Assembly: GCF_000024225.1 (NCBI RefSeq)
Contig: NC_013203.1
Coordinates: forward strand, 558,001 to 622,000
Length of the DNA stretch: 64,000 nt
From: Lancefieldella parvula DSM 20469
Lineage (GTDB): Bacteria; Actinomycetota; Coriobacteriia; Coriobacteriales; Atopobiaceae
Direction: 5' to 3'
Numbering within the stretch: the stretch's first letter is position 1; each line of letters starts with the position of its first letter. A model generated the notes under the pieces. That model was not told the origin of the DNA, did not search any database, and saw nothing but the letters and a program-made list of their open reading frames with translations. Position numbers and translations under genes: made by a program. Below are positions 24,659 through 30,152 of the stretch, piece after piece.

Positions 24659-26017
24659 ATGTCGGATTTACATGAGTCACTTGCTCTTTCTGAGGAGCTT
24701 CTTGCTTTTATTAAGCAGAGTCCTTCCATGTTTCATACTACACAAACTATCAAAGACTACCTGTTAGAGAACGGTTTCACTTACCTCTCTGAGGGTTCTT
24801 CTTGGGATGTTCAGCCAGGCGGCTCTTACTTTACAACACGCAACAATTCTTCAATTATTGCCTGGAAAGTTGGCGAGAAATACCGTGAGGCTCAAACCTC
24901 AAACGCTGATACTCCTTATCACTTCCAGCTTGCTGTTGCCCATGGCGATTCTCCAACTTACAAGGTAAAAGCCCAGCCAGAGCTTACTGGCGAGGGCAAC
25001 TCGCTTCGTCTGAACACTGAGGCATACGGCGGCATGCTTGACCACACGTGGTTTGACCGTCCTTTGGGTGTTGCTGGCCGTGTGCTGGTCAAGGTAGGAA
25101 ACAAGGTAGAGTCCAGGCTGGTCAACATCGAAGATGACGTTGTCATGATTCCAAGCTTGGCTATTCATCTTGAGCACAAAAATGGTCTCTCGCCAGAGTT
25201 CAACCGTGCTAAAGATCTGATGCCACTTTTCAGCGTTGGAGAGCTCAATCCCGGCGCCTTTAACGCCCTGGTAGCAGATGCAGCAGGTGCGTCTCAAGAG
25301 GACATTCTTTCTCGCGATCTCTTTTTGGTTGATCACACAGGTGGTCGTATTTGGGGCGCAAAGAAGGAGTTTGTTTCCGCTGGTCATCTGGATGACCTGC
25401 AGTGTGCCTTTGTAGCACTTAAAGCTTTCCTTGCGTCTTCAAATGAGCAGGACATCTCTGTGTACACCTGCTTTGACAACGAAGAAGTTGGCTCAAACAC
25501 TAAGCAGGGTGCTAAGTCTACGTTCCTTAAAGACACGCTACAGCGCGTAAACGCTACGCTTGGCTTTACGCAGGAAGATTACTACCGTGCGCTCTCGGCA
25601 TCTTTGCTAGTAAGCTGCGACAACGCTCATGCGGTGCATCCCAATTATCCTGAGAAGCACGATGCGGCCAACAAACCTTACCTCAACGGAGGTATGGTTA
25701 TCAAGGAAGCAGCACGTCAGTCATACTGCACGGATGCGTTTAGCCGCGCCATTGTCGAGGCAATTTGGAAGCAGCAAAACGTTCCATATCAGATTTTTGC
25801 TAATAGAAGCGATATGCCAGGTGGATCTACTTTGGGCAACCTCTCCAACATTCAGGCCAGCATGCATGCCGTTGACGTGGGTCTGCCTCAGCTTGCTATG
25901 CACTCTGTTTACGAAACCGCGGGCACTAAAGATACACTTTTGGGGTACCAGGCACTTAAGGCGTTCTATGACACCTGCGTCTGCATTACTGATGCCGATT
26001 CGTTTGAGTTGAGGTAA
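24659..26017 (+). CDS. M18-family aspartyl aminopeptidase
   Basis: Binuclear zinc aminopeptidase of family M18 (DNPEP/ApeB type), a cytoplasmic dodecameric peptidase preferring acidic N-termini. The metal and catalytic motifs appear in order: AVAHGDSPTYKVK, LDDLQCAF (bridging Asp), CFDNEEVGSNTKQGAKST (Glu-Glu) and CDNAHAVHPNYPEKHD, then a late His in PQLAMHSVYET. ATG 24659 follows GAAAGG by nine bases. The frame is open back to 24590 but that extension lacks both a ribosome-binding site and family similarity. 452 residues is the usual length. An exact 12-mer GGCGAGAAACCC lies just after the stop. Confidence 0.94.
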   Translation: MSDLHESLALSEELLAFIKQSPSMFHTTQTIKDYLLENGFTYLSEGSSWDVQPGGSYFTTRNNSSIIAWKVGEKYREAQTSNADTPYHFQLAVAHGDSPTYKVKAQPELTGEGNSLRLNTEAYGGMLDHTWFDRPLGVAGRVLVKVGNKVESRLVNIEDDVVMIPSLAIHLEHKNGLSPEFNRAKDLMPLFSVGELNPGAFNALVADAAGASQEDILSRDLFLVDHTGGRIWGAKKEFVSAGHLDDLQCAFVALKAFLASSNEQDISVYTCFDNEEVGSNTKQGAKSTFLKDTLQRVNATLGFTQEDYYRALSASLLVSCDNAHAVHPNYPEKHDAANKPYLNGGMVIKEAARQSYCTDAFSRAIVEAIWKQQNVPYQIFANRSDMPGGSTLGNLSNIQASMHAVDVGLPQLAMHSVYETAGTKDTLLGYQALKAFYDTCVCITDADSFELR

Positions 26018-26023
26018 ACGCTT

Positions 26024-26035
26024 GGCGAGAAACCC
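26024..26035 (+). repeat. Exact GGCGAGAAACCC site
   Basis: Exact 12-mer, 7 bases after the stop of the aminopeptidase gene. One of five exact copies in the window. Confidence 0.85.
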
Positions 26036-26090
26036 TGTGCACTAGGTATACTTAACTACAAAAACACAACACGTGACTTGAAGGAGTTCC

Positions 26091-26846
26091 ATGTCAGAAA
26101 AACAGCTTACTGCTCATGATATGGAGCTCCTAATCTGTGCAGGTATTTACGTTGAACCCCAGACGCTGAGTGGTCCTGCGTTGGTATTTCCTATCTCAGA
26201 TGGTGAAGGTGGAGAAATACGCGTGCTGTGGCAGGGCGGCGCCTATGAGAGTGCAACTTACACGGATTCAAGAAAGAATCAGCTGGTATTTCCTTATCTT
26301 GAATTGTATGACTTGCTGTTTGAAGCTGCCTGTCCTGTACACTCAGTTTTGATGATTGGTGCTGGCGGCTGCTCGTATCCTCGTTATTTAGTAGCTCACC
26401 ATCCAGAGGTTTCTTGCGATGCACTGGAGATTGATCCTAAAATTGCAGCTCTAGCTCGTAGCCACTTCTTTGTGGATGAGGCTATTAGAGAGAGCAACAA
26501 CAGACTTCAGCTACAGATAGCTGATGGCGTTGAGTATATAAAGAGCCTATCTACATCTAATAACAAGCACTATGACGCTATCCTAAACGACTGTTTTATC
26601 GGAGAAGCTCCACCTGCGGCTATGATGACCGTTGAGTGGATGAGCTTGGTAGCACAATGCCTTACTCCTGGCGGAAGATATCTCACAAATGTAGTTTCTG
26701 CACAAGTAGGAGAGGATGCGCATCAGCTTGAAGCGCTCATGGATGCTGCTCGCATGGTGTTTGAACAGGTAAAGGTTGTTCCCTTGGATCTAGAAGTAGA
26801 TCCAACAGAGCCAGATAACCTTATGCTCGTTTGTCAGCGCGCTTAA
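26091..26846 (+). CDS. Spermidine-synthase-like class I methyltransferase-fold protein
   Basis: 251 residues with the Rossmann glycine loop MIGAGGCSYPRYL (about residues 84-96) and the following acidic DALEIDPKIA, as in SpeE and related aminopropyl- or methyltransferases. The strand that normally ends in the catalytic DxxD of spermidine synthases reads YDAILNDCFIGEAPP, so the canonical aminopropyltransfer site is only partly kept and another nucleophile or methyl transfer is possible. ATG 26091 follows GAAGGAG. The last 45 bases of the gene belong to a 47-bp sequence duplicated 1.9 kb downstream, around an AT-rich insert. Confidence 0.8.
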   Translation: MSEKQLTAHDMELLICAGIYVEPQTLSGPALVFPISDGEGGEIRVLWQGGAYESATYTDSRKNQLVFPYLELYDLLFEAACPVHSVLMIGAGGCSYPRYLVAHHPEVSCDALEIDPKIAALARSHFFVDEAIRESNNRLQLQIADGVEYIKSLSTSNNKHYDAILNDCFIGEAPPAAMMTVEWMSLVAQCLTPGGRYLTNVVSAQVGEDAHQLEALMDAARMVFEQVKVVPLDLEVDPTEPDNLMLVCQRA

Positions 26847-26848
26847 GT
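26802..26848 (+). repeat. 47-bp direct repeat, left copy
   Basis: Identical to 28718-28764. It contains the last codons and TAA of the SpeE-like gene. Together the two copies bound an AT-rich segment with one ABC transporter. One mismatch before the left edge (GAT against GAC) then allows a further GA match. Confidence 0.95.
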
Positions 26849-26855
26849 ATTAGTA

Positions 26856-26905
26856 TTTGACTATTTATTAGTCAAAAGTTTTAGTGATGTTAATGAATTA
26901 ACATC
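26856..26905 (+). promoter_or_regulatory. Hairpin and palindrome upstream of the ABC gene
   Basis: TTTGACTA and TAGTCAAA (26856-26876) make an 8-bp hairpin that may end SpeE-like gene transcription. Next, GATGTTAAT and ATTAACATC (26886-26905) form a perfect 9-bp palindrome with a 2-base centre, operator-like, about 134 bases before the ABC start. A TGTAAAAT -10-like element is at 26931-26938. Confidence 0.5.
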
Positions 26906-27038
26906 GATAGAAAATTAAAAAACAATGAAGTGTAAAATTAAAGTCGCTGATTTTAGTTTTTGAATGATTCTCGTTTGGACACAGCATAAATTGAATTCTT
27001 TAGTCCAGTTCAGTGCACTTGATTGGAGATATAAATAT

Positions 27039-28670
27039 ATGAAAGAATCGTTTTTATCAATAAAAGAAATCTTTCATATTGGTAATGGAAAAATTAATGT
27101 ACTAGTTTTTCTTGCTGTTTTAGCGGTTATATCATCATTTCTTGAAATTTATTCGATTCAATATATGCAGTCACTTTCAAAAGTTTTTAGCACAACGGTT
27201 TCAAATGATCTTTTTCAAATTGGTTTTATTTGTGCTAAGTTTTTGATGTTAATTGTGCTTTCAACAATAGTTAGAAATTACTTTTGCTTTAGAGTTTCCG
27301 TCTTTTCAAACGACATCATTAAAAACGTAAGAGATAAAGCGTATTCGAAACTTACTGATACGGAATATGAATTAGCGATAATTCACGATAATGCGTTTTA
27401 TATTAATTTGATAGACAATAACGTAAATAAATTGAGCTTAATTTTTTCAACAAGTTTTTTTACTTTGTGCTCAGATATATTCGATACAGTGTGGATTTGC
27501 TTTTTTATGATACAAATAAATATTACATCGTTACTTATTTTAATAGTTGGCATATTACCATTAGTTTTAATCGGTAATATATCAGCATCCGAGCAAAAGA
27601 AGTTTGCAGAAAATACAATCAAACTCAATGAGGATTTGATTGAAAAGATTAATGAAACTAATGATAACTTTTCATATATTAAATTGTTTAAAGGTAAGGA
27701 GAGAGAGGCTAATCGTTTTAACCGTATAAATATTGATATTTTGGAGAATGATAATTTATCGAGTGCAGCACTTAGTATTTTCTTTGTAATAGAAAAAAGT
27801 ATTCGATACTTATTTGTTGCGATTTCATTATTCTTTTTATGTAAAGATGTACTAGCGCAAGATGGGAATTGGATGATTCTTATCCCATTTTTGCTCTATG
27901 TACAAAGATTTTATAATCCATTTTCAAATTTGAATAAATATTCTCAGTTAATTCAAAAATCCGTTTCAAGTGCAGACAAGCTTATAGATTTTATAATCTC
28001 AAAGCCAACTGAGGAAATTTCAACTATTCAATTTATTTCTGATTCATCTGAATCAGAAATAGTTTTGTCTGGTATATCAAAGAATTATGAATCTGAAACA
28101 ATTCTTGAAGATGTTACTTTTAGTTTTAAAGAAGGAATCAACTTAATTGACGGAAAAAGCGGTGTAGGTAAATCCACTTTGTTAAAAATACTTTTAGGCT
28201 TAATTAAATCTTCGAGTGGGAAAGTGACTATTTATTCTCGAGCAGATGACTTGAATTTGTATGCATATTCAGGACAATCAAATAAACTGTTTAATTTATC
28301 TGTGATAGAAAATTTAATATATCCAAAAACCGTAGACCATCTTTCATCATCGGAAAGAATGAAATTAGAGAGTCTACTAGATGAATTTGGATTCAGAAAA
28401 AGCATATTGAATAAAGATATTGCTAAAGAAGGTGAAAATCTTTCTGGAGGTGAAAGAAAAAGACTGTCTATTCTTAGAGCACTGATTCGTCCGTCAAAAG
28501 TTGTGATACTTGATGAACCATTTGCAAACTTAGATTCGAACAATATTGAAATTATCGCTCGGAAAATACAGGATCTTTCCAAGAACAGAATTGTTATTAT
28601 TGTTTCTCACGAAACGTCATTTCCTGATTCTTTAAAATTTAATACGCACTTGACTATTAGCGGCACCTAA
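27039..28670 (+). CDS. ABC transporter, membrane and ATPase domains fused
   Basis: About 543 residues. A six-helix exporter-type membrane domain (about residues 15-300) is followed by an ATPase with Walker A GKSGVGKSTL, Q-loop YSGQSNKLFN, signature LSGGERKR, Walker B VVILDEPF and H-loop IVSHE. It is a half-transporter that should work as a dimer, of the type that exports peptides, lipids or drugs. ATG 27039 has GGAG ten bases upstream; ATG 26964 lacks one. Codon use is strikingly AT-rich (many ATA, AAA, TTA) compared with both flanks, and the gene stands alone between 47-bp direct repeats, so it is probably acquired. No substrate gene or partner is adjacent. Confidence 0.88.
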   Translation: MKESFLSIKEIFHIGNGKINVLVFLAVLAVISSFLEIYSIQYMQSLSKVFSTTVSNDLFQIGFICAKFLMLIVLSTIVRNYFCFRVSVFSNDIIKNVRDKAYSKLTDTEYELAIIHDNAFYINLIDNNVNKLSLIFSTSFFTLCSDIFDTVWICFFMIQINITSLLILIVGILPLVLIGNISASEQKKFAENTIKLNEDLIEKINETNDNFSYIKLFKGKEREANRFNRINIDILENDNLSSAALSIFFVIEKSIRYLFVAISLFFLCKDVLAQDGNWMILIPFLLYVQRFYNPFSNLNKYSQLIQKSVSSADKLIDFIISKPTEEISTIQFISDSSESEIVLSGISKNYESETILEDVTFSFKEGINLIDGKSGVGKSTLLKILLGLIKSSSGKVTIYSRADDLNLYAYSGQSNKLFNLSVIENLIYPKTVDHLSSSERMKLESLLDEFGFRKSILNKDIAKEGENLSGGERKRLSILRALIRPSKVVILDEPFANLDSNNIEIIARKIQDLSKNRIVIIVSHETSFPDSLKFNTHLTISGT

Positions 28671-28717
28671 AGTTTTCTTTTGTTTTAATCATCCTTCCTC
28701 AAAATCCAGAAACAGAC

Positions 28718-28764
28718 CCAACAGAGCCAGATAACCTTATGCTCGTTTGTCAGCGCGCTTAAGT
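28718..28764 (+). repeat. 47-bp direct repeat, right copy
   Basis: Identical to 26802-26848. This copy contains the last codons and stop (TAA on the minus strand, 28739-28737) of the MFS gene. On the plus strand it is a non-functional duplicate of the end of the SpeE-like gene. Confidence 0.95.
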
Positions 28765-29999
28765 GCGGTGAGCGCAAGCGCAAGGCATGTACTCATAAGT
28801 ACAATGCCTATGCCAAAGAGAACCAAGAAACCGTGGGCTGAACCGTCAACAATCAAGCTCCAAATAATGAGCGCACAGGCAGAGACAAAGCAGCTTACAC
28901 CTGCAATTCTTGAGTAGATAAGAGTGGAATCTTTTTTTCCAAAGACTGTGCGTACCAAAAGAGGTGAGCCGACTGTTGTAAGGGCGTAGGCAATTCCAAA
29001 AAGGAAGGTTCCTGCCAGCAAGAGCGGCAATATTGGAAGCTTAATTCCCAACATAAGTAAGCTAACAATACCCGAGAAAATTCCTACAAAGCAGGCAAGT
29101 TTTACCGAAATATCACTTAACGCGCCTAGAAGTACCTTTCCAATTGCTTGGCCAAGCATAGTTGCTCCGGCAAGAAGGCCCGTAGCCGCAGCAATTGCAG
29201 GAGCGGTTTCTGCAAACGTTGCAGCATAGCTAGGGAAGTACTGAGAAATTTGCTGGTTAAGAGTAATGAGTGCATAAAACGCTGCAACCATATAAAACTC
29301 TGGATATTTCATTGCGTCATCAGCAGAGATGTCGGTTGAAGTAGTTTCTTCAACTTCAACGTTTTTCTCGCCAATAGAGGAGAAGGTAAGAGGCGTAAGG
29401 CCAAGGTCTTGGGGTTTCTCGCGTATTACAAAAAGGGTAAAGGGGAGTGTTCCCACTAGCATGACTAGGGCAAAAATAAGATAACAAGCACGCCAACCTT
29501 CAGGACTAGAGGAGATAATGGCAGATCCGATGGGGTTAAAGACAGTGCCGCCGATGCCGGTAAATGCAAAGCAGAGACCCATAAAAGTACCAACGCGCTG
29601 GTCAAACCAATCGTTGATAAGGGCAGGGACGCACAAGAACATGAGTGCAGGTACGCCAATACCAAGTCCCACCGCGCAGAGATAGAAATGCCATATCTCT
29701 TGAGCGGCTGACATGGCTCCGTATGAAGCTGCGCAGATGATAACGCTTGCAGAAAGCACCAGGCGAGTGTCGTGTGATTTATAGAACTTGCCTATGAACG
29801 GCAAAGCTATCGTCATAGCAATGCAGAGTACCGAGAAGACCGCAGAGAAGGCAACGCGGGGAACGCCAAAATAGTTTGAAACAGGTGTAATAAAAATTCC
29901 AAAGCAGGTCAAAATAATTGCACAGGGCAAAAACATGATGACAATACAAGTTGCAACGATGGCATATGCATACTTAGTGCCTAGTAAACGTTGTAGCAC
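28737..29999 (-). CDS. MFS transporter, OxlT/oxalate-formate antiporter-like
   Basis: Twelve-helix major facilitator of 420 residues. The N-terminal half contains VPRVAFSAVFSVLCIAM and the Gly-rich GLCFAFTGIGGTVFNPIG helix; a charged central loop (about 190-225) separates it from the second half with QISQYFPSYAATFAE. The pattern resembles OxlT-like monocarboxylate/oxalate antiporters; substrate cannot be read. I place the start at GTG 29999, five bases after GAGGAG; the frame is open to TTG 30077 but that would run through a leader hairpin. Its last codons lie within the 47-bp repeat and originally overlapped the end of the convergent SpeE-like gene. Confidence 0.85.
   Translation of the reverse strand: MLQRLLGTKYAYAIVATCIVIMFLPCAIILTCFGIFITPVSNYFGVPRVAFSAVFSVLCIAMTIALPFIGKFYKSHDTRLVLSASVIICAASYGAMSAAQEIWHFYLCAVGLGIGVPALMFLCVPALINDWFDQRVGTFMGLCFAFTGIGGTVFNPIGSAIISSSPEGWRACYLIFALVMLVGTLPFTLFVIREKPQDLGLTPLTFSSIGEKNVEVEETTSTDISADDAMKYPEFYMVAAFYALITLNQQISQYFPSYAATFAETAPAIAAATGLLAGATMLGQAIGKVLLGALSDISVKLACFVGIFSGIVSLLMLGIKLPILPLLLAGTFLFGIAYALTTVGSPLLVRTVFGKKDSTLIYSRIAGVSCFVSACALIIWSLIVDGSAHGFLVLFGIGIVLMSTCLALALTALKRADKRA
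29412..29423 (-). repeat. One-mismatch 12-mer site in the MFS gene
   Basis: GGGTTTCTCGCG, one mismatch from the reverse complement of GGCGAGAAACCC. Confidence 0.7.
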
Positions 30000-30030
30000 T
30001 GAGGCTCCTCTCTTTTGACCAGAAATAGTG

Positions 30031-30064
30031 TAGGCGATGTGCCGTAAAAAGGACACATCGCCTA
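30031..30064 (-). promoter_or_regulatory. Leader hairpin upstream of the MFS gene
   Basis: A perfect 11-bp inverted repeat (TAGGCGATGTG with CACATCGCCTA, 12-base loop) lies between the hemerythrin gene and the MFS start, about 32 bases before the GTG. It is not followed by a T-run on the minus strand, so it is either an mRNA leader structure or a protein-binding palindrome. Confidence 0.55.
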
Positions 30065-30152
30065 CCGAGTCGTACAAAATTTTTAGAGCTAAAAAGCCTT
30101 TGTGAGTGCGTTTTGCTTACTTTTTTACGCGCTATTTTGCGAACATGAGACC

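Follow-up and report, generated by a model that had tools for sequence, protein, structure and literature searches.

A foreign, AT-rich ABC exporter gene between the duplicated ends of two convergent genes in Lancefieldella parvula

Lancefieldella parvula is a bacterium of the mouth. The window analyzed here, a stretch of 64,000 bp, runs from base 558001 to base 622000 of a genome that consists of one contig of 1,543,805 bp, the size reported for the type strain of L. parvula (Atopobium parvulum), whose GC content is 45.7% (PMC3035223). Positions given below are those of the window. Two convergent genes frame the locus: a SpeE-like gene with a spermidine synthase fold (26091-26846, plus strand, 251 aa; 89% to its orthologue in a sister species) and an MFS transporter gene recognized from its ORF and domain matches (28737-30077, minus strand). 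Between them lies an AT-rich insert of 1869 bp (26849-28717, plus strand) bounded by direct repeats, with the 3' end of the SpeE-like gene inside the left repeat and that of the MFS gene inside the right one.

The insert contains 28.6% GC, compared with 45.9% for the window and 46% for both flanks, and is the lowest-GC 1.87-kb stretch of the whole window. Its GC3 is also low (0.23, versus 0.39 and 0.44 in the flanks), in agreement with an earlier note on this DNA that had described the segment as much lower in GC and different in codon use; its composition is foreign. It holds one clear gene, an intact ABC exporter. Inspection of its repeats and ORFs turned up neither a transposase nor an integrase nor a terminal inverted repeat, again as the note had reported.

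The exporter is a half-transporter of 543 aa, identified by domain and motif matches and encoded at 27039-28670 on the plus strand; its ORF is open from 26964, and the best start is the ATG at 27039, behind a GGAG. The protein has the ABC_membrane and ABC_tran domains of an ABC exporter and intact Walker A (GKSGVGKS), signature (LSGGE), Walker B (VVILDE) and H-loop motifs. Its best profile match is PHROG 2392, ABC transporter (E 4e-63); an MsbA model matches at E 3e-44, generic MsbA- and CydD-type models match as well, and solved exporter structures give E values of 1e-22 to 1e-30, while scores fall under the NCBIfam equivalog cut-offs shown. Like MsbA, BmrA, P-glycoprotein-type exporters and PHROG 2392, it is a one-chain half-transporter with its motifs intact, but its full-length matches are only 19-29% identical and it has no peptidase domain. 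Its cargo is probably a peptide, lipid or drug that is pumped out of the cell. We rejected a reading of the gene as a defence system, the matches being limited to the shared ATPase domain.

No close relative of the exporter was found in any collection searched, full-length matches being just 19-29% identical. Searches for a donor gave at best 29% in the class Coriobacteriia, segments of 19-40% among genome contigs, and about 20-25% in phages and plasmids; in 399 genomes of a Bacillus's class there was none at E 1e-36, a weak result obtained without a positive control. The low GC of the gene indicates an AT-rich source, and the exporter gene is a horizontal gain of AT-rich foreign DNA.

The direct repeats that bound the insert are identical over 47 bp (26802-26848 and 28718-28764), and both copies described in the earlier note were recovered; an exact match of 47 bases is far beyond chance. 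The similarity runs 14 bp further on the cassette side. The identity of the 47-mer therefore stands, but what the note had taken for an exact 47-bp duplication is better seen as one of about 61 bp (93%) with a diverged inner edge, its left copy spanning 26788-26848 and its right copy 28704-28764 on the plus strand. Only 23 of 20,000 shuffles did as well as this extension or better, and only 4-6 of 1,792 other insert offsets matched or exceeded it. All four differences between the copies fall within the 14 bp adjoining the cassette (28704-28717 in the right copy). A hypergeometric calculation by hand, restricted to the 33 right-copy bases outside coding sequence, gave p = 0.024 for four of four differences in the first 14. 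At one differing site, the right copy carries C, as does the sister species, and the left copy carries T. This clustering mildly favours donor alleles over later drift. Within the 47-mer, a weak inverted repeat (CTTATGCTCG / GCGCGCTTAAG) can be read by eye; the 47-mer was rejected as a hairpin site, its folding being no better than that of shuffles.

The two genes overlap by 26 bp; the duplicated stretch reaches past this overlap by 2 bp at one end and by 33 bp at the other. As the note had claimed, the left copy supplies the end of the SpeE-like gene and the right copy that of the MFS gene, and ORFs and comparison with the sister agree that both reading frames are kept. With the overlap of these predicted genes duplicated, neither lost its end.

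The comparison within the genus covered five genomes, with L. parvula represented by one strain. In the sister species (G002), the gene order is the same, a single repeat copy is present, and the SpeE-like and MFS genes overlap tail to tail; this is the empty site, with one copy of the 47-mer, that the earlier note had proposed to look for. When our flanks were joined without the insert and the second copy, 282 bp aligned to G002 at 90% without a gap, which bears out the note's prediction that such a removal restores the overlap. Synteny with the sister extends beyond 3.8 kb in both flanks, and the addition was clean, with no chromosomal loss. The note would have taken the ABC gene and both repeats in all relatives as a sign against insertion; none of the other four congeners has the exporter, their best matches being 25-29% paralogues. 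On gene order and alignment, these data demonstrate that, compared with the sister, the L. parvula lineage gained an insertion, and we consider it very likely indeed that the exporter gene was acquired in this way. If instead the locus with the exporter were ancestral, its loss in the sister through recombination between the repeats would yield exactly the arrangement seen there. We regard this history as very improbable: the gene has a low GC content and no close relative in the genus or class, and the duplication would still require an insertion.

The mechanism of insertion is not proven. The direct repeats on either side of the insert could point to transposition, with a target-site duplication of unusual length, but this is extremely improbable: there is neither a transposase nor a terminal inverted repeat, the repeat is far longer than usual target duplications, its copies differ at the edge, and the left end of the cassette does not recur elsewhere in five congeners.

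Integrative elements habitually enter the 3' ends of genes and restore each end with a carried copy. The insert could accordingly be the remnant or passenger of a site-specific (cis-mobilizable) element, with the repeats as attL and attR, a carried replacement 3' end, and a recombinase that has disappeared or works in trans. Cis-mobilizable elements and genomic islands likewise show direct repeats at the 3' end of a gene whose frame is restored, and the weak inverted repeat in the 47-mer is in keeping with such a site, its unremarkable folding notwithstanding. We nevertheless judge this origin unlikely. Here the very small insert carries a single gene and no integrase, two convergent genes are kept, one repeat edge is diverged, and no known element has the core. 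Even with up to three mismatches allowed, no further copy of the 47-mer exists in this genome, and the repeat core is absent from 398 Coriobacteriia except for this genome and the sister's empty site, so that the widespread repeat which the earlier note had weighed against insertion was not encountered. The core was also not found in viral contigs, and phages and plasmids yielded nothing at significance; neither flanking protein was present in viral contigs. A genome-wide search that covered tyrosine recombinases found none within 39 kb of the insert (585-587 kb); on the upstream side the nearest is ~40 kb away, at 545 kb, and on the downstream side ~46 kb away, at 633 kb. The note's suggestion of a mobile cassette or site-specific element thus gained no backing, as no second cassette, free attachment site or partner recombinase was found.

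Tentatively, and with somewhat less than even confidence, we favour a model in which the chromosome underwent a single crossover with a circular DNA that carried a diverged SpeE tail beside the exporter. The donor would have been a circular (or tandem) molecule in which the exporter adjoined a slightly diverged SpeE 3' end; its circularity we only infer. One RecA-type crossover within the ~47-61 bp of shared sequence (Campbell integration) would insert the whole molecule, so that the left copy links resident SpeE with donor DNA and the right copy links donor DNA with the resident end of MFS. The four cassette-edge differences in the right copy would then be donor alleles, and selection would have retained the product in which both genes were alive. 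Such an integration predicts the one-copy empty site and gap-free joined flanks (282 bp, 90%) seen in the sister, a prediction common to other insertion models. It also fits the clean addition without chromosomal loss, the confinement of the differences to the 14-bp edge (p 0.024) as expected of imported alleles, the sister's C in the right copy opposite T in the left, and insert ends free of any transposase, integrase or inverted repeat. Work in E. coli saw part of a gene duplicated after a single crossover with a circular molecule; illegitimate recombination facilitated by homology, by contrast, generally ends in a deletion (PMC3240628). Because laboratory duplications arose by circular single crossover while illegitimate events normally delete, single-crossover integration is favoured here over duplicative illegitimate joining and a degenerate site-specific element. 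Campbell integration via short homology, with duplicated lacZ ends, likewise produced direct repeats of the shared sequence without a recombinase; at our locus the homology is merely ~47-61 bp and no donor was identified (PMC3240628). Several points count against a single crossover. Neither the donor, the circle nor a second locus was found in searches of the genome, the class, viral contigs, phages and plasmids; a circle in which a SpeE tail already adjoins the AT-rich exporter requires a prior event; the four differences could be ordinary drift, the right copy being non-coding there; and homology of ~50 bp is less than RecA recombination needs to be efficient.

A duplicative illegitimate insertion, with the foreign DNA joined either at a staggered break or through a template switch in the course of repair, is possible, if somewhat doubtful. 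Fill-in would have duplicated ~61 bp, survivors would be those in which at least the gene overlap was duplicated, and the right inner edge would have drifted later. A duplication that exceeds the 26-bp overlap by 2 and 33 bp suits a random length under selection, the diverged 14 bp are needed by neither gene in the right copy, and, since comEC is present in the genus, linear DNA could be taken up. That every difference sits at one edge (0.024 when only unconstrained bases are counted) argues the other way, as does the tendency of homology-anchored events to delete rather than duplicate (PMC3240628). Homology-facilitated illegitimate recombination, proposed for Vibrio gene modules, similarly places a foreign module beside a conserved anchor, but it usually deletes resident DNA, which here was duplicated (PMC5361080).

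Together, these observations describe a well-bounded case in which a gene was added between overlapping convergent genes, with both unharmed and the site empty in a close relative. Gene gain without a recombinase, and the way in which selection shapes the length of a duplication, can be tested on it. The horizontal gain is clear but fairly ordinary, and no new mechanism or kind of element is required. New relative to the earlier note are the 61-bp repeat, the uniqueness of the 47-mer, but for the sister, in the collections searched, the congeners without SpeE, and the lack of a close relative of the exporter in those collections.

Convergent junctions contain no promoter to disrupt, so changes in their content are unsurprising. 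In three other Lancefieldella genomes (G001, G003 and G004), the SpeE-like gene (region 26017-26846 here) is missing: only 40-50 bp separate the M17 peptidase from the aligned end of MFS, and the C-terminal residues of MFS vary in line with the presence or absence of SpeE. Either SpeE was gained in the lineage of L. parvula and its sister or it was lost in the other congeners; by gene order, the content of the SpeE/MFS convergent junction has changed twice or more. That the junction is a recurrent hotspot at convergent gene ends, receiving recombinase-free cassettes with replacement tails (SpeE first, then the exporter), seems to us quite improbable.

Several smaller structures were also observed. 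A search against Rfam revealed no structured RNA. The left end of the insert includes a structured segment at 26856-26876 (plus strand; z -3.87 for an 82-nt stretch folded as DNA) and a second hairpin with a 9-bp stem at 26885-26906 (plus strand); these may be a terminator or operator. They are followed on the same strand by a putative, unproven 12-codon ORF (MKCKIKVADFSF, 26925-26963) that ends directly before the ATG at 26964. Within the exporter coding sequence, a 13-bp hairpin (TTATTTCTGATTC...GAATCAGAAATAG) at 28033-28062 precedes T-rich sequence. Lastly, on the minus strand, the first codons of the longest MFS ORF contain a strong 14-bp hairpin that resembles a terminator (30030-30065), so MFS probably has its true start further downstream.
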